The notes beneath the pieces are model-generated. The model had not been told where the DNA came from. It saw nothing but the letters and a program-made list of their open reading frames with translations, and ran no database searches. A DNA stretch of 64,000 nt, taken from assembly GCF_004135735.1 (NCBI RefSeq), contig NZ_CP012670.1, forward strand, positions 4,051,501-4,115,500. The letters run 5' to 3'. Below, in pieces: positions 126-56,119 of this stretch (position 1 is its first letter; every line of letters starts with the position of its first letter). This stretch comes from Sorangium cellulosum (GTDB taxonomy: Bacteria; Myxococcota_A; Polyangia; Polyangiales; Polyangiaceae). The position numbers and the translations under genes were made by a program.

Positions 126-186
126 GTGCCAGGCGTCCGCCGCGCGACCACGCGCTCGCCGAGGTACGCCACGTGGAGACACGACG

Positions 187-1770
187 ATGCAACAGCACAG
201 CGCACGAACAAGCTACCTCCACCGGTTCAGGCTCCTCCTGCTCGCCCTGCTCGCCCTCGCGATCGCGGCCGCGGTGCTGCTGCTCGCCCGCCCCAGGGCC
301 GAAGAGCGCCCCGTCGCGAGCCGCGAGGAGGCCCCGGGCGAGGCGCGGAAGCGAGCGTCCACCTACCGGAACCGGTCCATCCTGAGGGCCCCGGCGCCAT
401 CACGGCCGCGCGGGTCCGAGCGCCCGCGGATCGTCGGCGAGGTCTATGACACGGACGGCAACACGCTCGCGGGCGCGGCCGTCGTCGCGACGACGTTCGA
501 GGTCGCCGGCAACATCCCCTCGACCGCGGGCGCCGTGAAGAGCGACGAGCGCGGGCGCTTCGAGCTCGGCCTGCCGGACGGGACGTACCAGCTCAAGGCC
601 GATCTGGCCGGCTACGGCCCGACCACCGCGGTCGCGCACAGCGGCGACACCGTGAGCCTCGTCCTCGCGCGGAGCGGCGTCATCACCGGACGCGTCGTCG
701 ACGAGCGCAGGGAGCCGGTGCGCCGCTTCTCCATCGATGTCCTCACCGCCGCTCCCGACGACGTGCCGGCGCCGCCGCCGATGACCTCGAGGACGTTCGA
801 CAGCCCCGATGGGACCTTCCGCATCGACCAGATCCCCCCCTGGGGCGTGATCCTCAAGGCGACGGCCGAGGCGCACGCGCCGGCGTTCTCCGACGTGCTC
901 TCCGTGAAGGCCGGTGGCACGGGCTCCGTGGAGCTCGCGCTGTCCCGCGGGTGCGCCCTCTCGGGGAGGGTGGAGGACCCGCAGGGCACCCCGCTGCCGG
1001 GCGTGTTCATCGACGCCGAGTCGCGCGTCGGCGCCGGCGCGCTGAGCGAGATGGCCTTGAAGTCCTCGGCCGACGTGCAGCAGACCCAGACAGGGGACGA
1101 CGGCACCTTCCGGCTCGATCATGTGCCCACGGGCGACATCCAGGTGCGCGCCTACGACGGGAGCTACGCGGTGACCACGCTGGCCATGACCCTCTCCGAC
1201 TGCGGCGAGGCGGAGCCGGTCCGGGTGGTCATGTCCCCCGGCGGGAGCCTCCGCGGCGTGGCGCGCCGGGATGACGGCTCGCCGATCCCGCACGCAAAGC
1301 TGACGCTGCTCTCCCGGTCCGTCGGCTTCGTGAGCGTGATGGCCGACGCCGAGGGACGCTATCAGATCGACGATCTACCCGCCGAGAGGGTGCGCCTCGA
1401 GCTGCGCGAGGGGACCCGGGCGGCCATGGTGTCCGTGAACGTCAAGGAGGGCGAGGTGGTGAGCCGCGACATCTCCCTCTTCGGCGAGGGGACCGGCGAG
1501 ATCAGCGGGCGCGTCACCGCCGGCGACAGGCCCCTCGCCGGGGTTCGCCTCCTGATCGCCACCAACCGCGGCCGCAAGCAGGGCTTCGAGCGCTACATGC
1601 CGGTGACCGACAGGGACGGCAGCTTCCGCGTGCCCGCCCTCGCCGCGGGGGGGTACGTGGTCACCGCCATGACGACCTCGGTGGGCCAGGGCGTCCACGT
1701 CGAGGAGGGCCGCGTCGCGACCGTGAACCTGGACGTGACGCCGAGGCCCGCCGCCGAGGACACGAACTGA
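187..1770 (+). CDS. Membrane-anchored protein with carboxypeptidase-regulatory-like repeats
   Basis: The protein has 527 aa. The ATG at 187 is preferred over an open upstream extension because GTGGAG lies 9 nt before it and the protein then begins with a short basic stretch and one hydrophobic segment (about residues 14-34), giving an N-terminal anchor or uncleaved signal. The rest holds about five beta-sandwich repeats of the carboxypeptidase-regulatory-like type (roughly 80-150, 160-240, 255-345, 355-430 and 435-505). Each carries a G-x-V-x-D-x-x-G-x-P-L-x-G-A motif and a later DGxF/Y-x-L/I-x-x-L/V-P. Such repeats form extracytoplasmic scaffolds. No catalytic domain is visible, so only a structural or adhesion role at the cell envelope can be suggested. 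It ends against a long hairpin element and converges with the next gene. Confidence 0.7.
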   Translation: MQQHSARTSYLHRFRLLLLALLALAIAAAVLLLARPRAEERPVASREEAPGEARKRASTYRNRSILRAPAPSRPRGSERPRIVGEVYDTDGNTLAGAAVVATTFEVAGNIPSTAGAVKSDERGRFELGLPDGTYQLKADLAGYGPTTAVAHSGDTVSLVLARSGVITGRVVDERREPVRRFSIDVLTAAPDDVPAPPPMTSRTFDSPDGTFRIDQIPPWGVILKATAEAHAPAFSDVLSVKAGGTGSVELALSRGCALSGRVEDPQGTPLPGVFIDAESRVGAGALSEMALKSSADVQQTQTGDDGTFRLDHVPTGDIQVRAYDGSYAVTTLAMTLSDCGEAEPVRVVMSPGGSLRGVARRDDGSPIPHAKLTLLSRSVGFVSVMADAEGRYQIDDLPAERVRLELREGTRAAMVSVNVKEGEVVSRDISLFGEGTGEISGRVTAGDRPLAGVRLLIATNRGRKQGFERYMPVTDRDGSFRVPALAAGGYVVTAMTTSVGQGVHVEEGRVATVNLDVTPRPAAEDTN

Positions 1771-1788
1771 GCCGCCGCCCTGGTCCGG

Positions 1789-1908
1789 CCGGGTGGAGGG
1801 GCGCTCCTGGGGGCTCCCCGGAGGGGCTGAAGTGCAGGCGAGCCACAAAAGGGGCTCGCCGGAACGCAAGCCCCGGAGGGGAGCCCCCAGGAGCGCCCCT
1901 CCACCCGG
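1789..1908. repeat. Long hairpin element, copy A (bidirectional terminator or REP-like unit)
   Basis: Perfect 29-bp inverted repeats (1789-1817 and 1880-1908) enclose an internal region with its own hairpin, GGCGAGCC-ACAAAAGG-GGCTCGCC. It sits between two convergent genes (stops at 1770 and 1918), where it could terminate both. A second copy in inverse orientation lies at 54711-54843. The inner part (about 75 bp, with 48 contiguous identical bases) is nearly the same in both copies, while the outer arms differ in sequence but remain self-complementary. Confidence 0.8.
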
Positions 1909-1917
1909 TCGGGGCCG

Positions 1918-3654
1918 TCACCTCGGCCGGATCTCGGTGAGCACGAGCAGGTACTCCGGCGGGTTGTTCGGCGTCAGCTTGGCATACGGGTTCTGCTGGG
2001 TGGGGAACCCCGTGAATCGCTTGGAGTTGTACTCGCCCCACGACGGGTTCTTGAAGAGCGGGATCACCGGCGCCGCCTCCACGAAGATCCTCTGGATCGC
2101 GTCGAGGATGCGCTTCTGCTCGGCCGGATCCGTCGCGGCCTCGAACTGGTGGAACAGCGGGTCGGCCTGCTTGGCCCCGAAGCGGTGCCAGTTGCGCGCG
2201 CTCATCTCGCCGACGGGCTTCACGAGCTCCGTGCCCATGAGATCGCGGTAGAAGTTGTAGGGGGTGGGCTCGACCGTGGTCCAGCCCATCGACACGTCGA
2301 ACGTGCCCTTCTGGAGCGCCTCGAAGAACGCGCTGAAGTCGTACGTCCTGAGCGAGGCGTCGAGGCCGATCTGCTTCAGGTTCTGCGTGATGATCTGGAC
2401 CGCGCGGACCCAGTCGGACCAGCCGGTCACGACGTTGATGTCGAAGCGTATCGGCTTGCCGCCCCTCATCCGGATGCCGTCGGGGCCCCTCGGATAGCCC
2501 GCCTCGTCGAGGATCTTGTTCGCCCGGGCCACGTCGAGCTTCACCCAGTCGCCCGCGGCCACGGCCTCCTCGTTGCGGAAGCGTTCGTAGGAGTCGTCCA
2601 GCCCGGTCGCGTCCGCGCCGTGCGTGTAGTTGTTCGCCGCGATCTTGACGATCTGCTCCCGGTCGATGGCCATGCTGATCGCCTTGCGCACCCGCACGTC
2701 GTCGAACGGCTTCCTCGTGCTGTTCGGATAGAGCGTGGCCGTGCCGCCCACGAGCGGGAACCAGTAATGATGGTGCGTCGGATCCTTGGCGACGAACGTC
2801 TTCTCGATGTCGGGGACGAAGGCGCCCGCCCAGTCGACCTCGCCGCTCGTGAGCGCCAGGCTGACCTGATCGTTGCTGGGGTACGCCGGGAAGCGCAGCC
2901 CGTCGACCGCCGGCTTGCCCTTCTGCCAGTAGTTCGGGTTCCGTCCGAGCTCGTAGATCTGGTTCTGGAAGACCTTCACCTCGGTGAACGGCCCTGTCGC
3001 CACGGGGTCCTCGTTCGCGTACGTGACCGGATCCGCGACGTCCTTCCACTTGTGCTCGGGCACGATCGGCTGGTGTCCGATGTAGCTGAGCCCGGGGACA
3101 TAGGGCCGCTTCAGCGCGAACTCGACGGTGGAGGCGTCCCTGGCCGTCACGGCGCCGACGAACTTCCAGACGCCCGAGAGGTCGAGCGCCGGGTGCTTCT
3201 TGAGCAGCCCGAACGTGAACGCCACGTCCTTCGCCGTGAACGCCTCGCCGTCGGACCACTTGACGTCGGGGCGGATCGTGAAGGTGAGCTTCGTGTTCTG
3301 CTCGCTCCACTCGTACCGGGTCGCGAGCCACGGCGTGTACTCGTTCCTCATCGTGTTGTAGATGAGCATCGGCTCGTAGATGCCGGCGACCGTCGGGAAA
3401 CGCACGTTCCCCTCGGCGAGCAGGGGGTTGAAGTTGCGCACCCACGTGGCCTGCTGCTCCCTGGCGATGGTGACCATCGCGGGGCCCTTCTGCGCGGGCT
3501 TCGCCGCGGACGCGGCCGTCGCGGCGCCGTCGGGCGCGCCGGAGGCGGTCTGGGCTCTCTCCTTGGAAGAGCAGCCCGCCGCGGCGCCCGCGGACAGGAT
3601 CAGCGCCGACAGGACGAACCCGCGGCGGCGCATCGAACGACTCGTCTTCAGCAT
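1918..3654 (-). CDS. ABC transporter substrate-binding lipoprotein (family 5, peptide-type)
   Basis: The 578-aa precursor begins MLKTSRSMRRRG and has a lipobox ending AAGC with the lipidated Cys at 28, so it is an exported lipoprotein. The start at 3654 is chosen because AAGAGG precedes it and a signal peptide follows at once; the open frame continues upstream to 3798 without signal-like sequence. The body matches solute-binding family 5 (DppA/OppA-like): an N-terminal NPLL..EGNVRFPTVAGIYEPM region, DVKWSDGEAFTAKDVAFTF, and a long C-terminal lobe. Family members bind peptides, nickel or oligosaccharides. No permease or ATPase gene is adjacent, so the ligand is unknown. A TTGACA/GATAAC promoter candidate lies upstream. 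Confidence 0.85.
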   Translation of the reverse strand: MLKTSRSMRRRGFVLSALILSAGAAAGCSSKERAQTASGAPDGAATAASAAKPAQKGPAMVTIAREQQATWVRNFNPLLAEGNVRFPTVAGIYEPMLIYNTMRNEYTPWLATRYEWSEQNTKLTFTIRPDVKWSDGEAFTAKDVAFTFGLLKKHPALDLSGVWKFVGAVTARDASTVEFALKRPYVPGLSYIGHQPIVPEHKWKDVADPVTYANEDPVATGPFTEVKVFQNQIYELGRNPNYWQKGKPAVDGLRFPAYPSNDQVSLALTSGEVDWAGAFVPDIEKTFVAKDPTHHHYWFPLVGGTATLYPNSTRKPFDDVRVRKAISMAIDREQIVKIAANNYTHGADATGLDDSYERFRNEEAVAAGDWVKLDVARANKILDEAGYPRGPDGIRMRGGKPIRFDINVVTGWSDWVRAVQIITQNLKQIGLDASLRTYDFSAFFEALQKGTFDVSMGWTTVEPTPYNFYRDLMGTELVKPVGEMSARNWHRFGAKQADPLFHQFEAATDPAEQKRILDAIQRIFVEAAPVIPLFKNPSWGEYNSKRFTGFPTQQNPYAKLTPNNPPEYLLVLTEIRPR

Positions 3655-22275: not shown

Positions 22276-22779
22276 GCAGGACGTGCTCCCGGGGACCGGC
22301 GGTGAAGGGGCGAGTCCATCGGCGACGGCCCCTCCGTTGTGCGTCGTCGTGCTTCACGCCCGCGCTCCCGCGCGCGCGGCGGAACAGACGTTGGTCAGAG
22401 AAGGAATCGAAGTGTCGTTTTCGGCTCCCGACGACTGGGCGTCTCGCAGACGCCAGATGAGCCCTCAGAACGAGTGGACGGGCAACGAGCTCGTACGCAC
22501 GGAGTTTTCCGTTCGGCACGGGAGTATTCCCGACCAGTACGGAAGCTTTCCGTGCGGCGCGGGAGTATTCCCGACCAGCACGGAAGTGATCACGGCTCGT
22601 GACGAAAGATCAGGGAGCCATCCCACCACCGTCGATGGCGGCGCGCGACGCGCGCGTCGGCTCCCGGGCGGGGGCGCGCGTCGTGGTGTCCTGGTGTCGT
22701 GAAGAGCGAACGAGCGACCGGAGTCGCCTCTGCGATCACGAGGCGACTCCGGCGCGCGCGGGGCGCGGCGAGGGCGTCG
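22276..22779. other. Region between pheT and the uronate operon, no gene
   Basis: No credible coding sequence lies in these 504 bp, which separate two minus-strand transcription units. It must hold the end of the pheST message and the promoter of the uronate operon. Its main structure is the palindromic tandem repeat at 22498-22595. Confidence 0.5.
22498..22595. repeat. Tandem 40/41-bp repeats with two nested palindromes (operator candidate)
   Basis: Two full units (22498-22537, 22538-22578) and one partial unit (22579-22595) each begin with ACGGAA-type sequence and end with CCCGACCAG. Each full unit contains the palindrome CGGGAGTATTCCCG. Unit 2 also has CGGAAGCTTTCCG, of which unit 1 has a variant. 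It lies about 220 bp upstream of the first gene of the uronate operon. Confidence 0.7.
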
Positions 22780-36830: not shown

Positions 36831-37677
36831 GCTACTCCCTTCTGTTCGTGGACGACGCGAGCCATGCAGCGCTGATCGCTCCTCCGGCGTTGTAGCAGGC
36901 GCTCCCCGGGGCGCGCTCCCGAGCCCCCTCGTGAATCGCCCTCGTCGCGTCCTGCGCCGCCCTGAGCCCCGTGCAGCGCGGCGTCCGTGACGGAGGGGCG
37001 TCGGCGCGCGCGGGTCCATGCTCGGGCGCGGACGACCAGAACGCTTCCCCGCTTCTTCTCCTTACAATGAGTAGCCAAGGATTCGATTCCGCATCTGTCA
37101 TGAACGGAGGAGCTGTCACGCGCTGGCGAGATCCCTTGATGATAGCCGATCTCGAGCCGCCTCGGGCAGGTTCATGGGCTCGCTGTCTCCTGCGCACGGG
37201 CGCGACGGTCGATGTGTCGGAGGCGCCGAGTCGCGGAGTCCTTCTGGCCTGACGACCGTGGCTGGCACTGGCGCCAGTCTCATGGGGGGTGTCACCGCCG
37301 CGGGGATGCGCGTCAGGACATCACCGCATGGTCGGCTCTCGGCATCGCGACGGGCGCCGCGAGCCGGAAGCGCGATGTCCGCCCGCCGCCGACTTTCCCG
37401 GTTCGCGCTGTCGCGTCGCCCGCGCCTGCGCTGTCGTCGCGTCCGGGCTCGCGCTGTCGCGTCCGGGCTCGCGCTGTCGGCGCGACCGCGCACGGGGCAC
37501 GGCCGCGCGCCCGCTGTCCGCGCACGGGGCGCGGCCGCGCGCCCGCTGCCCTGCCCGCGCGAGCCCGCGCGGGCATGGGTTTCCGGGGGCGCGGTTCTCC
37601 ATACCGCTTCCGCGCGGCACGCGCTATCAACGCAGCCGCGAAGCGCCGGCGACGCCTGCGCTTCCCAGGTTGCCCCC
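36831..37677. other. 847-bp region without a recognisable gene, with GC-rich tandem repeats
   Basis: Possible reading frames here are Arg/Ala-rich and look like random GC-rich sequence. The region holds a 20-bp period repeat at about 37436-37479 and a 32-bp period repeat at 37486-37549. A relatively AT-rich patch sits at 37050-37145. The promoter of the TopIII-RecQ gene should be near its right end. Confidence 0.45.
37436..37549. repeat. Short GC-rich tandem repeats (20-bp and 32-bp periods)
   Basis: GTCCGGGCTCGCGCTGTCG occurs at 37441 and 37461. CCGCGCACGGGGC followed by GGCCGCGCGCCCGCT occurs at 37486 and 37518. Both sit 130-240 bp upstream of the TopIII-RecQ gene. Confidence 0.6.
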
Positions 37678-42045
<4,368 letters not shown>

Positions 42046-45441: not shown

Positions 45442-47594
45442 ATGCGCGACGCTGGGGAGCCGAGAGTGGTCCTGAAGAGCAGCGACCGAGCCGTTCGCAC
45501 TCGAGGAATCGCCCTCGCCACGGCGCTCCTGTGTGCGCTGCTGCCGGCGCGGCTGCACGCACAGCCGCAGCCGGTCACGCTGTCATCGCCCAGCTCCGCT
45601 GCGATCGAGTTCGACGGCACAGGTCTCTGCGCGGCATCGGCCCTGTCCACCGAAGCGCGTGTGGAGTCGGACTTTTATGTGCCCCCGAGCGATCCTGATA
45701 CCATCAACAGCCGTCTGCGATTCAACGAGAAGATCAACGCGTTCATCGAGAGCAAGCGGGAGGAGCGCCTCGAGTACGTCATCCGGACCGTCCTGGATCT
45801 AAGCAACAACAACAGCAACAATTCCGATCCAGAGAGAGGAGGCCCGCTAAGCTACGGCGACTTTACCGGGTTGATGACGCCCACGTGTCAGGAGGGCGGC
45901 TGCGACTTCCCGTGGAAAAGCCACGGCACCAGCGAGCCGTTCGGCTCGCGGCTCCGCGGGTTCCTGAACGTCACCGACGCGCTCGTGGGCAAACCGGTCC
46001 ATATCGGCTTCTACAGCGATGACGCGGTCAGCCTCAGCTTCTTCGACAAGGGCGTCGGCGAAAAGCCGGTCATGATCCGCCCGGCACGGCTCGGGCTCCC
46101 GACCTGGCGCCTCACGAACACGGTCACGTTCGAGAGGCCCGGCCTGTACCCGCTCGAGATTCTCTATGTGGAGATCGCGGAGCACGCGGCGCTCGAGATG
46201 TCCTACTTCATTGGAGAGTTCGAGGACTTCGAGCTCGGGGCGCGGGTGGAAGACAGCACGAACCTCAAGGACGCCGGCTTTACCATCTTTCAGCCGACTC
46301 AGTTCTTCCAGACGCTGAGCGGCTCGCCGTCGTTCTCCGACATCGAGCAGTGCCAGCAATGCCCTCGTCAGCTCATCGGACAGGCCGAAAACACCGGCTG
46401 TCCATCGAGCTTCTACTGCAACGAGGCAGCCCTCTGCGCCCCGTGCGACACCGCGTACTTCTGCGGTGAGTCCTGCTCGCGCTGCGAGGGCGACACGCAG
46501 TTCTGCATCGACGTCAACGGCAATCGGCAGTGCGCCCAGTGCCGCACCGACGCCGACTGCCACGCCAACTTCACCTGCGACCCCGAGACGCACGAGTGCA
46601 AGGAGCGCTACGAGTGCGAGGAGGACCCGGACTGCCCGCGCGGCCACGTCTGCGTCGAGCACGCGTGCGTGCCGTGCGACTCGCCCGACATGTGCGCCGG
46701 CAACTCCTGCAACTGCTGCCCGAACGGGATCAACGGCAGGCAGATGGACTGCGCCGCCGTCGAGCCCGGCGGCATCGAGATGTGCGTCGAGTGCGTCAAC
46801 GACACGCAGTGCCCCGACGGCAAGGTGTGCCACACCCCGACCGGTCACTGCGTCGACCCGCCCCTCCCGACGAACGCGCAGCCCGACTGCTGCGGCGAGG
46901 GGTGCGTCGACTGCATGCGCCCCGAGGACCCGAACGATCCCGAGACGCCCCCGGTGCCGTTCTGCCTCCCCGGCCCCATCGGCACGGCGTGCGCCGCGTG
47001 CCGCAACGACATGGACTGCGGCGAAGGCCAGTACTGCCTGAGCGGCGAGTGCAAGGCGTGCGTCGAGGACCGGCGCTGCGGCGCGCGCTGCAGGAGCTGC
47101 GGCGAGGACACGCCGTTCTGCCTCGGCACGTTCGCCGAGACCGCCGCCTGCGTGCGCTGCACCTCGGACGATCAGTGCGCCGGCACGACGTGCAACCCCG
47201 AGACGCACGCGTGCGACCCCCCCGGGTGCATGGCGACCTGCGCCGAGGACACCCCGTACTGCGACGGCGAGAAGTGCGTCGAGTGCTACGCCGACACGCA
47301 GTGCCCCTGCGGCAACACCTGCGACCTCGAGACGAACACCTGCGACGTCTCCTGCAAGTCGAACCTCGACTGCCTCGGCAACGAGCACTGCCGCTGGACC
47401 GACCAGGCCGACGCCAAGGAGTGCGCGCTCGGCCCGATGCCGGACAACGTCGCGTGCGGCGGCACCCTCGCCGACATCTGCAGCGTCTCGGTCGTCGGCC
47501 AGAAGGGCACCGACCCGCGGCCCGCCGGGCTCCTCGCGCTGGCGATGCTGGCCCTGCTCGAACGGCAGCGCCGGCGGCGCGCCGGAGGTCCGTC

Positions 47595-47598
<4 letters not shown>
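45442..47598 (+). CDS. traA: TraA-like outer-membrane exchange receptor
   Basis: The protein has 718 aa. A signal peptide (core [14 protein letters not shown], cleaved near LHA-Q) leads to a PA14-like domain (about 50-270; [24 protein letters not shown]). A long Cys-rich region follows (about 295-680) with repeats such as [30 protein letters not shown] and [10 protein letters not shown]. The C-terminus has a Cys (ICSV), a hydrophobic segment ([13 protein letters not shown]) and an Arg cluster, like the MYXO-CTERM sorting signal. This order matches TraA, the polymorphic kin-recognition receptor of Myxococcus that drives outer-membrane fusion. The stop overlaps the OmpA-type gene by 4 bp, as expected for traAB. 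The DNA of the N-terminal domain is lower in GC than the Cys-rich part. Confidence 0.75.
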
Positions 47599-49478
<1,880 letters not shown>

Positions 49479-53070: not shown

Positions 53071-53688
53071 ATGGGACTGACCCGCGATGCGGTCTTCTTC
53101 GACGCGCTCGCCGACCATGCGCAACGGAGCGTTGCCGCGAGCACGCTCCTCCTGGAAATGCTCGACCGGATCGAGGATGCGCCAGGGCTGGCGAAGCGGA
53201 TTTCTGACCTCGAGCACGAGGGCGACAAGATCACCCACGGCTGCCTGGCCGCTCTCCATCAGACATGGATCACCCCGCTCGACCGCGAGGAGATCCACGC
53301 CCTCATCACCCGGCTCGACGACGTGCTCGACTGCATCGATGCCGCGAGCATGCGGATCGTGCTGTTCGAGGTCGGCGGCGCCCTCCCCGAGGCGCGCGAG
53401 CTCGCGCGGGCGGTGGTCGACGCGTGCACCGTGATGAGCTCGGCCGTCCAGTCGCTCAAGGACATGAAGCGGCAGCCGGACCTCCTCGCGCTCTGCGTCG
53501 AGATCAACGAGCGTGAGAACGCGGCGGACGGCCTCTACCGCAAGGCGCTCGCGGCGCTCTTCAAGAAGGGGAACGACCCGCTCCTCGTCATGAAGTGGCG
53601 CGACATCTACGACCTGCTGGAGAACGCGACCGATCGCTGCGAGGACGTCGCGAACATCATCGAAGGCATCGTCCTCGAGCACGCATGA
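53071..53688 (+). CDS. DUF47-family PhoU-like phosphate transport regulator
   Basis: The protein has 205 aa, all helical. It shows DLEHEGDKITH, the ITRLDDVLDCIDAA segment and ENAADGLYRKAL, then the DIYDLLENATDRCEDVANII signature near the end. The Glu/Asp-rich ExxxD repeats are the metal-binding sites known from PhoU. Members usually sit before a Pit carrier and modulate it; here the stop overlaps the pit start (ATGA). Confidence 0.93.
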   Translation: MGLTRDAVFFDALADHAQRSVAASTLLLEMLDRIEDAPGLAKRISDLEHEGDKITHGCLAALHQTWITPLDREEIHALITRLDDVLDCIDAASMRIVLFEVGGALPEARELARAVVDACTVMSSAVQSLKDMKRQPDLLALCVEINERENAADGLYRKALAALFKKGNDPLLVMKWRDIYDLLENATDRCEDVANIIEGIVLEHA

Positions 53689-54692
53689 CGACCTACATCC
53701 TCGTCATCCTCGTGATCGCGTTGATCTTCGACTACATCAACGGCTTTCACGACGCCGCGAACTCCATCGCGACCATCGTCTCCACCCGCGTCCTTTCGCC
53801 CCGCACCGCGGTGATCTGGGCGGCCGCGTTCAACTTCATCGCGTTCGCGCTGTTCGAGCCCACGGTCGCGCGCAACATCGCGAAGGGCGTCGAGACGGCG
53901 TTCATCACCCCGAACGTCATCCTGGGCGGCCTCCTCGGCGCGATCATCTGGAACCTGCTCACGTGGTGGTGGGGGCTGCCCTCGTCGTCGTCGCACGCGC
54001 TGATGGGCGGGTTCGCGGGGGCCGCGGTCAACAGCGCGGGGCGGCTGTCGGTGCTCGACGCCACCATCTTCGGCAAGACGGCGGCCTTCATCCTGGTGTC
54101 GCCGCTGCTCGGCGCGATCATCGGGTTCGTGCTCATGCACGGGATCCGGGTGCTCGCGCGCGACTGGGCGCCCGGCAAGGTGAGCAGCCGGTTCCGACGC
54201 CTGCAGCTGCTCTCGGCCGCCGCCTATTCGCTCGGCCACGGCGGCAACGACGCCCAGAAGACGATGGGCATCATCACGGCGCTGCTCATCTCCGCGGGCC
54301 TCCAGTCGAGCGAAGGCGAGCCGAAGCCGATGCTCTGGGTCGTGCTCGTCTGCCACGCCGCGATGGGCCTCGGCACGCTCTCCGGCGGCTGGCGCATCGT
54401 GAAGACGATGGGCATGAAGATCACGAAGCTCAAGCCGGTGGGCGGCTTCGCGGCCGAGACCGCCGGCGCGGCGACGCTGTTCAGCGCCACGGCGCTCGGC
54501 ATCCCCGTGAGCACGACCCACACGATCACGGGCGCCATCGTCGGCGTCGGCGCCACGAGCGGGCGCCTCTCCACCGTCCGCTGGGGCGTCGCCGGGCGCA
54601 TCGTCTGGGCCTGGATCTTCACGATCCCCGCCTCGGCCCTCCTGGCCGCCGCCGTCTACAGCGCCGCGCGCTACATCTCCGGCACCCCCTGA
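53685..54692 (+). CDS. pit: Low-affinity inorganic phosphate transporter, PiT family
   Basis: The protein has 335 aa with about ten hydrophobic segments. The two inverted family signatures are DYINGFHDAANSIATIVSTR (N-terminal half) and SLGHGGNDAQKTMGIITALL (C-terminal half), with GLPSSSSHAL and GIPVSTTHTITGA. It imports phosphate with protons as metal-phosphate. It is translationally coupled to the DUF47 gene and followed by hairpin element copy B. Confidence 0.95.
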   Translation: MTTYILVILVIALIFDYINGFHDAANSIATIVSTRVLSPRTAVIWAAAFNFIAFALFEPTVARNIAKGVETAFITPNVILGGLLGAIIWNLLTWWWGLPSSSSHALMGGFAGAAVNSAGRLSVLDATIFGKTAAFILVSPLLGAIIGFVLMHGIRVLARDWAPGKVSSRFRRLQLLSAAAYSLGHGGNDAQKTMGIITALLISAGLQSSEGEPKPMLWVVLVCHAAMGLGTLSGGWRIVKTMGMKITKLKPVGGFAAETAGAATLFSATALGIPVSTTHTITGAIVGVGATSGRLSTVRWGVAGRIVWAWIFTIPASALLAAAVYSAARYISGTP

Positions 54693-54710
54693 TCCGCACG
54701 CGGATCCGCA

Positions 54711-54843
54711 CGCGGGCGCGGGGGGTGGGGGCGCGCCGGGGGCTCGCCTCCGGGGCTTGCGTTCCGGCGAGCCCCTTTTGTGGCTCGCCTGCACGCCAGC
54801 CCCTCCGGTGAGCCCCCGGCGCGCCCCCACCCCCCGCGCCCGC
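54711..54843. repeat. Long hairpin element, copy B
   Basis: Arms 54711-54744 and 54809-54843 are complementary with a single bulged base. The core is the reverse complement of copy A (1789-1908) and includes the same GGCTCGCC hairpin with CCTTTTGT in the loop. It lies between the convergent pit and PFK genes, again in a terminator position. Confidence 0.8.
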
Positions 54844-54946
54844 GTGGCAACGCGCATGGCCACAGGGCCCGGGTCGCGGCCACGGCCCGGGCCGCGCTGC
54901 GGTCCTCGTGGCTGGGTGACCCCGCGCGCTGCCGCGCGGGCGCAGG

Positions 54947-56119
54947 TCAGCCGCCGGAGCGCAGGCTGACGAAGTTGTCGAGGATCCAGGTCTTGAAGCG
55001 CTTGAGATCGAGGCGATCGATCAGCGGGAGGAAGGCGCGCTCCACGCCGTCCTCGCGCCGGATCGAGGAGAAGCTCAGCACGCCGACGTCGTCCGCGGCG
55101 AGCACGTACGGCATGACCTCCGTGCGCCCCTCCTCGAACGCCGCGAGGAGCAGCGACGCCTTGAGGAACGCCGCCGACACGTCGAGGAAGGCCGGGCGGA
55201 TGCCGCGGATGTACCGGCTGAACGGCTCCGCGATGACGCGCTTGTCCGGCGAGTCGACGAGCCCCGCGCCCTCGAGCTGCTTCTTCAGGAACGCGCTCGC
55301 CGACACGCCGGGGTGGTCCTTGCGGCGGCGCTCGGCCTCGTAGCCCTCGGCGACGACCACGAGCGCGTAGTCGGCGCGCCCGAGGTTCTCGGCGAGCTCG
55401 CTCAGCACGTCCTGGGGGAAGCGGAAGAACGGGAGCACGATGAGGTGCGCCCGCGCCGCCACCGCGCAGTGCAGCGCGTGCCGCCCGCTGCGGTTGCCCA
55501 TCATCTCGAGGATGTAGATCCGCTTGTGCGTGTACGCGTCCTCGTAGAGCCCGCGCGCGATCGTCGCGCCCGTCTCCACGCCCGAGAGGAAGCCGATCGC
55601 GCGATCGCCCGCCAGGTCGTTGTCGATGGAGACGTTGACGAAGCCCGCCTGCGGGCGGACCTCGAACTCGTCGAGCCAGGCCTTGATGCCCTCGAACGTG
55701 CCGTTGCCGCCGACGCAGATGAGGTGGGTGAACCCTTGTGCCTTGAAGATCTCGGCGGCGCGCTTGCGCTTCGCGCGGTCGAGGAAGCCGGAGTAACGCT
55801 CGCTCCGGAAGTCGCTGCCGGCGTCGAGCACGCGCCGCCCCATCGAGCGCGCCGGGATGCCCTGCGCGAGCAGATCGTAGCGCTGGCGCCGGCTCATGAT
55901 GAGGCGCTCGAACTGCGGCTTCGCCCGGGCGTCGTCGGTCAGCGAGCGGAAGCCTTCGGTCGCGGCCCACACCTCGTAGCCGCGTCGCGCCGCTTCCTCG
56001 GTCAGCGCGACGGCGACTGACGAGTAGCCTGGGGCATTGCCGCCGTCGAAGACGAGCAGCAAGCGCTTGTCCGATGCCGGGAGGGTTTCGGGACGTCCGA
56101 ACTCGACGATGCTGGTCAT
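54947..56119 (-). CDS. 6-phosphofructokinase-family protein with altered Mg/ATP-site residues
   Basis: The protein has 390 aa. The family core is clear: FDGGNAPGYSSVAVAL (nucleotide loop), ICVGGNGTFEGIKAW, NVSIDNDLAGDRAIGF (catalytic Asp), ILEMMGNRSGRHAL and VVVAEGYEAER. Compared with E. coli PfkA, Asp in GGDAPG and in GGDGS are both Asn here, and the MGR Arg is Asn. The catalytic TIDND Asp is kept (SIDND). It may use another phosphoryl donor, a different sugar phosphate, or be regulatory. No other glycolysis gene is adjacent; PEP carboxylase follows upstream in the same direction. Confidence 0.82.
   Translation of the reverse strand: MTSIVEFGRPETLPASDKRLLLVFDGGNAPGYSSVAVALTEEAARRGYEVWAATEGFRSLTDDARAKPQFERLIMSRRQRYDLLAQGIPARSMGRRVLDAGSDFRSERYSGFLDRAKRKRAAEIFKAQGFTHLICVGGNGTFEGIKAWLDEFEVRPQAGFVNVSIDNDLAGDRAIGFLSGVETGATIARGLYEDAYTHKRIYILEMMGNRSGRHALHCAVAARAHLIVLPFFRFPQDVLSELAENLGRADYALVVVAEGYEAERRRKDHPGVSASAFLKKQLEGAGLVDSPDKRVIAEPFSRYIRGIRPAFLDVSAAFLKASLLLAAFEEGRTEVMPYVLAADDVGVLSFSSIRREDGVERAFLPLIDRLDLKRFKTWILDNFVSLRSGG

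Follow-up and report, generated by a model that had tools for sequence, protein, structure and literature searches.

A previously undescribed family of palindromic mini-elements in one Sorangium lineage, with arms that probably covary through template switching

Two long hairpins in a 64,000-nucleotide stretch of the Sorangium cellulosum chromosome (the window) share a conserved core, while their outer arms vary and yet remain self-complementary. The question raised by this arrangement is what keeps such arms matched: selection on a folded structure, as the original prediction suspected, or the way in which the sequence moves and mutates. Both hairpins are real palindromes, and each lies between predicted convergent genes (Table 1). 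They are predicted to fold with -122 to -150 kcal/mol, corresponding to z = -11.6 to -14.4 relative to dinucleotide shuffles. The GGTGG...CCACC element itself is shorter than either palindrome, the outermost 7-15 bp of which belong to the host. The 8-bp flanks of copy 1, TCCGGCCG and CGGTCGGG, are inverted at 6 of 8 positions and are not direct repeats; those of copy 2, GCGCGGGG and CCCCGCGC, are perfectly inverted. The gene downstream of copy 1 belongs to a paralogue family with at least three copies in the host genome and up to five per congener (79-87% identical DNA).

Table 1. Coordinates of the two window copies, their neighbouring genes and a related full-length element (G000 is the host genome; G004 is a relative)
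Feature	Position	Strand	Basis or remark
Copy 1, palindromic mini-element, ends GGTGG...CCACC	1792..1905	+	sequence, covariance model and family members; boundary by family analysis
Copy 1, full inverted repeat including locus-specific flank	1785..1912	.	inverted-repeat analysis of the sequence
Copy 1, inner hairpin GGCGAGCC-ACAAAAGG-GGCTCGCC	1837..1860	+	G000:C1:4053337-4053360 (window offset 4051500)
Copy 2, palindromic element, orientation opposite to copy 1	54724..54831	-	sequence and family model
Copy 2, full inverted repeat	54709..54846	.	sequence
Predicted gene upstream of copy 1, convergent	186..1770	+	codon-usage gene call; ORF 34-1770
Gene downstream of copy 1, convergent, multi-copy paralogue family	1918..3633	-	codon-usage gene call
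Predicted gene upstream of copy 2, convergent	53685..54692	+	codon-usage gene call
Predicted gene downstream of copy 2, convergent	54947..56119	-	codon-usage gene call, ORF list
Full-length IS630-family element	L140:509-2170 = G004:C1:3266108-3267769		further copies in G004

The host genome is a single contig of 11,261,481 bases. The inner 24-mer, with up to 3 mismatches, occurs in it at 143 places (68 on one strand, 75 on the other), and the reversed control at none. A genome search with a covariance model built from 40 copies, proposed together with the original prediction, returned at least 150 places, all with E ≤ 9e-7, so that further copies do exist and the pair belongs to a dispersed family. 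We extracted 143 distinct core-bearing places, about eight of which are of an IS630 type described below. Family copies are scattered along the chromosome with no strand bias. Among 58 other genomes, only three, all of them congeners, have a weak match, one each; the five congeners thus show at most one weak related match apiece, and the more distant relatives have none. The core pattern found no match among 84,980 species genomes, a set from which the element's own species may be left out. Phage and plasmid records likewise held no family match, hence no sign of such an origin, and a search of Rfam 15 gave nothing above the gathering score, only sub-threshold generic hairpins. In the literature we found no such element described for Sorangium or other myxobacteria.

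One copy is about 110 bp long and non-coding. Between the ends GGTGG...CCACC lie arms of 22-30 nt and a conserved core, in which three short stems alternate with 3x3 internal loops and an 8-base loop closes the hairpin. On one strand the internal loops oppose GNA to GNA throughout (GGA/GGA, GRA/GCA and GCA/GGA). Two loci depart from this layout. At G000:C1:4918633 and 4918783 (L029 and L039) the element and its left flank are tandemly duplicated, with a junction running from mid-core to flank. At G000:C1:11164657 (L278) half an element is fused straight to an open reading frame, the other half seemingly having been removed by a deletion.

That the element is mobile is shown by its young copies. 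In subfamily B the arms are identical or nearly so (GGTGGTGGTCACGTTTGG or GGTGGTGGCCTCGTTTGG), and the 8-bp flanks are direct repeats, matching at 7 or more of 8 positions, in 15 of 21 copies, compared with 1.7% of permuted controls. Several of these duplications are exact and non-palindromic (CGCGGTCG at L172, CGACCGAG at L217, CGAGGCCG at L153 and CGCCCGCG at L154). An older IS630-type mini-element carries one copy (L207) nested in its arm; this copy is bounded by the duplication CGTCGCRG, and the empty site reads GGTTCGTCGCGGAGGGGCC. Empty sites are also found at the loci corresponding to the two window copies: in G004 both genes flanking copy 1 are present, 88% identical, with no element, and in G001 both genes of copy 2 are separated by a short gap lacking it. 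The 8-bp duplications, the nested copy and the empty sites together identify a mobile element that duplicates 8 bp of its target, in other words a miniature inverted-repeat transposable element (MITE): short and non-coding, with terminal inverted repeats, a target-site duplication of fixed length and empty sites in relatives. The window hairpins are thus members of a previously undescribed palindromic family, confined to one Sorangium lineage, of a known class of element.

The variation of the arms is of an unusual kind. In an alignment of 40 copies, 97.4% of the cells are paired and 195 show two-sided changes, against 51.9 in shuffles, none of 500 shuffles reaching as many. The observation that started this work, a conserved core within arms that vary but pair with themselves, therefore holds for the family at large, and the signal lies almost wholly within the outer helix. 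Arms of 20 nt differ at 8.5 positions on average between copies (partly owing to register shifts) but at only 0.70 within a copy; expressed otherwise, arm-versus-arm mismatch is about 3.5% within a copy while divergence between copies is about 40%. In 67 of 89 copies the arms are free of any internal mismatch.

Two features of the arms do not sit easily with selection for RNA pairing. Among roughly 2,270 cells of the variable arms there are 25 G.U and 24 A.C pairs, whereas selected RNA pairing should favour G.U. Secondly, pairing does not end where the element ends. The copies with unique arms have inverted 8-bp flanks (7 or more of 8 positions) in 54 of 85 cases, against 2% of controls, and where the ends are exact this inverted extension fades out over 5-15 bp. 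At the copies with direct duplications, in contrast, inverted complementarity outside the 8 bp is at control level (0.358 versus 0.364), so that the targets were not hairpins and the palindrome must have grown outward after insertion. The covariation proposed originally is consequently real, and what has been weakened is the step from compensatory arms to a selected RNA fold, both by the parity of G.U and A.C and by the passage of the 8-bp flanks from direct to inverted.

Multi-base compensatory changes and stem extension are the marks that template switching leaves in hairpins (PMC8794818). Here we find paired multi-base changes with no G.U bias, stem extension, and conversion of internal loops: loop 1 has become the exact reverse complement of its opposite side in 8 copies and loop 3 has been converted in 4, the core loops being kept in most of the others. 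We infer that the covariation of the arms in this mobile MITE is probably mainly mutational and arises by template-switch homogenisation, which fits the alignments better than selection on RNA does. The long hairpin would provoke template switching during replication. Each switch would turn one arm, and subsequently the adjacent target duplication, into the other arm's reverse complement. In this way the arms could drift in sequence without losing their perfect pairing, and the palindrome would grow longer by consuming host flank. In G000 no SbcD protein scores above the curated cut-off and only a distant phosphoesterase is found, an absence that might help long palindromes survive. The sole SbcD/Mre11-like gene found (L340:1033-2760, at about 8279500-8281200 of G000:C1) scores 52 bits where the SbcD cut-off is 77.65, and it has a copy of the element immediately downstream.

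The alternative implied by the original prediction is selection on the folded transcript, the element terminating transcripts or stabilising their 3' ends in either orientation, and compensatory selection maintaining the pairing of its arms. The fold is indeed very strong, the core and its three GNA/GNA loops are conserved, and within the core G.U exceeds A.C about 2:1. The excess hints at some strand-specific constraint, but it is carried by shared alleles. The position of the copies is also suggestive. By simple codon-usage gene calls, on which all the gap counts given here rest, 61 of 73 copies in tandem gaps have a shorter distance to the upstream stop codon than to the start codon that follows (median 25 bp, against 130 bp), 37 of 70 fall within the first fifth of the gap, and copies cluster 10-30 bp past stop codons. 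Against this stands the gene context. Of 135 copies 133 are intergenic, with 69 in tandem, 34 in convergent and 30 in divergent gaps, and these proportions equal those of all gaps in the window. The convergent placement of both window copies is accordingly ordinary, and a specificity for convergent genes is not borne out by these background counts. The element shows no orientation preference (28 versus 41), the arms carry no excess of G.U and their pairing runs into the target duplications, and the element is missing from relatives at the two loci tested. Nor does it look like an intrinsic bidirectional terminator, that is, a GC-rich hairpin with a U-tract: four or more T within 8 nt downstream are seen in 8 of 117 and in 5 of 117 copies, at most 7% with a U-rich tail. 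The proposal of bidirectional terminators between convergent pairs finds no support as a general rule, although the bias towards 3'-proximal positions is clear. A terminator role may be possible for some copies without defining the family, and selection on a folded transcript strikes us as an unlikely source of the arm pairing.

Template-switch homogenisation nevertheless has difficulties of its own. It should perfect the core loops as well, and their persistence in about 90% of copies counts against it. By the core clock, the inverted-flank copies are no older than the others (0.49 versus 0.78 private changes per 62 sites), at odds with a version in which the arms drift slowly. Moreover, among copies that share the same 62-nt core, 52 pairs in all, the arms are 5.9 edits apart, nearly as many as in pairs with 11 core differences (6.9). 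The arms are uncoupled from the cores, and simple slow drift does not account for diverged arms on identical cores. Either switching affects only the hairpin base and far outpaces point mutation, or selection or conversion between copies keeps the core as it is, or the arms are rewritten around transposition.

The last of these options, in its strict form, would have the arms rewritten at each transposition, one by fold-back or error-prone copying and the other by self-primed synthesis, so that each insertion is born with palindromic arms of its own. The distance between arms on identical cores and the youth of the inverted-flank copies, which by the core clock match those with direct duplications, are what it would predict. 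It is harder to reconcile with subfamilies A and B, whose arms are common to several copies and whose duplications are ordinary direct ones, or with an inverted extension that tapers instead of stopping sharply, and neither a polymerase nor a recombinase is associated with the element. We regard it as quite improbable. Also unlikely in our estimation is the picture of a mini-transposon that renews its matched arms at or soon after insertion, uncoupled from the conserved core, and turns its target duplication into an extension of the palindrome. If matched renewal of this kind were true, the ends would change as a unit, and one core could switch transposases, from an IS630 type to one that makes 8-bp duplications.

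A further reading places the palindrome before the element: insertion would occur into pre-existing hairpins such as terminators, and the outer arms and inverted flanks would be host sequence. It would explain the 3'-proximal position of the copies and their inverted flanks, and a small GC hairpin is predicted at the site in G004 where copy 1 is missing. However, the direct-duplication copies, with their control-level complementarity outside the 8 bp, rule it out for themselves; the arms hold a GGTGG/G-rich bias in an orientation fixed relative to the core; and the target of the nested copy is not a hairpin. We therefore think this reading very doubtful, and template switching after insertion is still the account to which we adhere.

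Which transposase moves the family? It would belong to a family giving 8-bp duplications and would act in trans or have since been lost or have diverged. A search of G000 allowing up to 3 mismatches found no two B-type ends in inverted arrangement and a gene's length apart, the 12 unpaired ends inspected are truncated copies or chance matches and reveal no autonomous element, and in relatives such ends occur at chance level only. Through the congener matches we found a related family that combines the core with different arms, has CTAGTACCGCGTCRCC... ends and targets TA. In G004, ends of the CTAGTACCGCGTCRCC type flank elements of 1.66 kb that encode a 365-aa transposase of the IS630 family (NF033545, E = 1e-68), and the terminal repeats of this element are common to palindromic mini-elements of three Sorangium genomes. 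Core-bearing mini-elements of the IS630 type are present in G000, G001 and G004. The core of the window family is homologous to that of the IS630-type MITEs of G000 and its congeners. The two groups (L063, L113 and L140 on the IS630 side) also share the palindromic layout and paired arm changes, but IS630-type copies have CTAG-TACCGCGTC... ends and a TA target whereas the window family has GGTGG ends and 8-bp duplications. It cannot be classed as an IS630-type MITE, as it lacks the IS630 repeats and the TA (CTAG) target. Parsimony suggests that the family derived from IS630-type mini-elements and gained other ends within the lineage of G000.

The original prediction also entertained a REP-like element moved in trans by a transposase. 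A dispersed, mobile and structured repeat it certainly is; the REP part has to be given up. Duplications of 8 bp do not suit single-strand Y1 transposition. Although the family consists of dispersed intergenic palindromes, the Y1_Tnp domain (PF01797) is absent from G000 while the control genomes were positive, leaving mobilisation by a RAYT, a Y1 tyrosine transposase, with virtually no likelihood. REP, BIME and REPIN sequences with their RAYT resemble the family as dispersed intergenic palindromes, but the family differs in having no Y1 transposase, a far longer palindrome and 8-bp duplications (PMC3116915).

Other palindromic intergenic repeats come closer in size. ERIC, Correia/NEMIS and RUP, at about 100-130 bp, are presumed MITEs like the present family, but they duplicate TA and their sequences are different, and we know of no case among them of arm homogenisation to this extent. 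With bacterial MITEs in general the family shares its short, non-coding, high-copy and intergenic character, its terminal inverted repeats and its target-site duplication (PMC10969869). Unlike in the usual MITEs, the pattern of conservation is reversed: the inside is conserved, the terminal arms vary to an extreme degree and still pair perfectly, and target duplications become inverted repeats. With quasipalindrome mutation by template switching, shown earlier in reporter genes and in RNA and protein genes, it has in common the multi-base compensatory changes, the perfecting of arms and the extension of stems (PMC8794818, PMC7202029, PMC8604942). What differs here is that the signature is read over about 100 dispersed copies of one element, in which the target duplication serves as an internal reference.

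Compensatory changes are usually read as proof of a functional RNA fold. The present family would constitute a large-scale natural counter-example, in which strong covariation that no shuffle reproduces, in about 100 dispersed copies, is best explained mutationally and the state of the 8-bp duplication provides the reference within each copy. The rate at which template switching perfects and lengthens bacterial palindromes can be tested directly on this family. The uncoupling of arms and core is a point of interest to specialists, and it raises the possibility that matched rewriting of the ends helps a mini-element to pass from one transposase to another.

The window contains repeats of other kinds as well. 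Three 54-bp tandem repeats at 39977-40142 lie in a long ORF (37174-42045), with a G+C content below that of the surroundings, and a 41-bp unit is present in two tandem copies, 90% alike, at 22503-22584. Between 46517 and 47315, in the region of ORF 46530-49478, there are repeats rich in cysteine codons.
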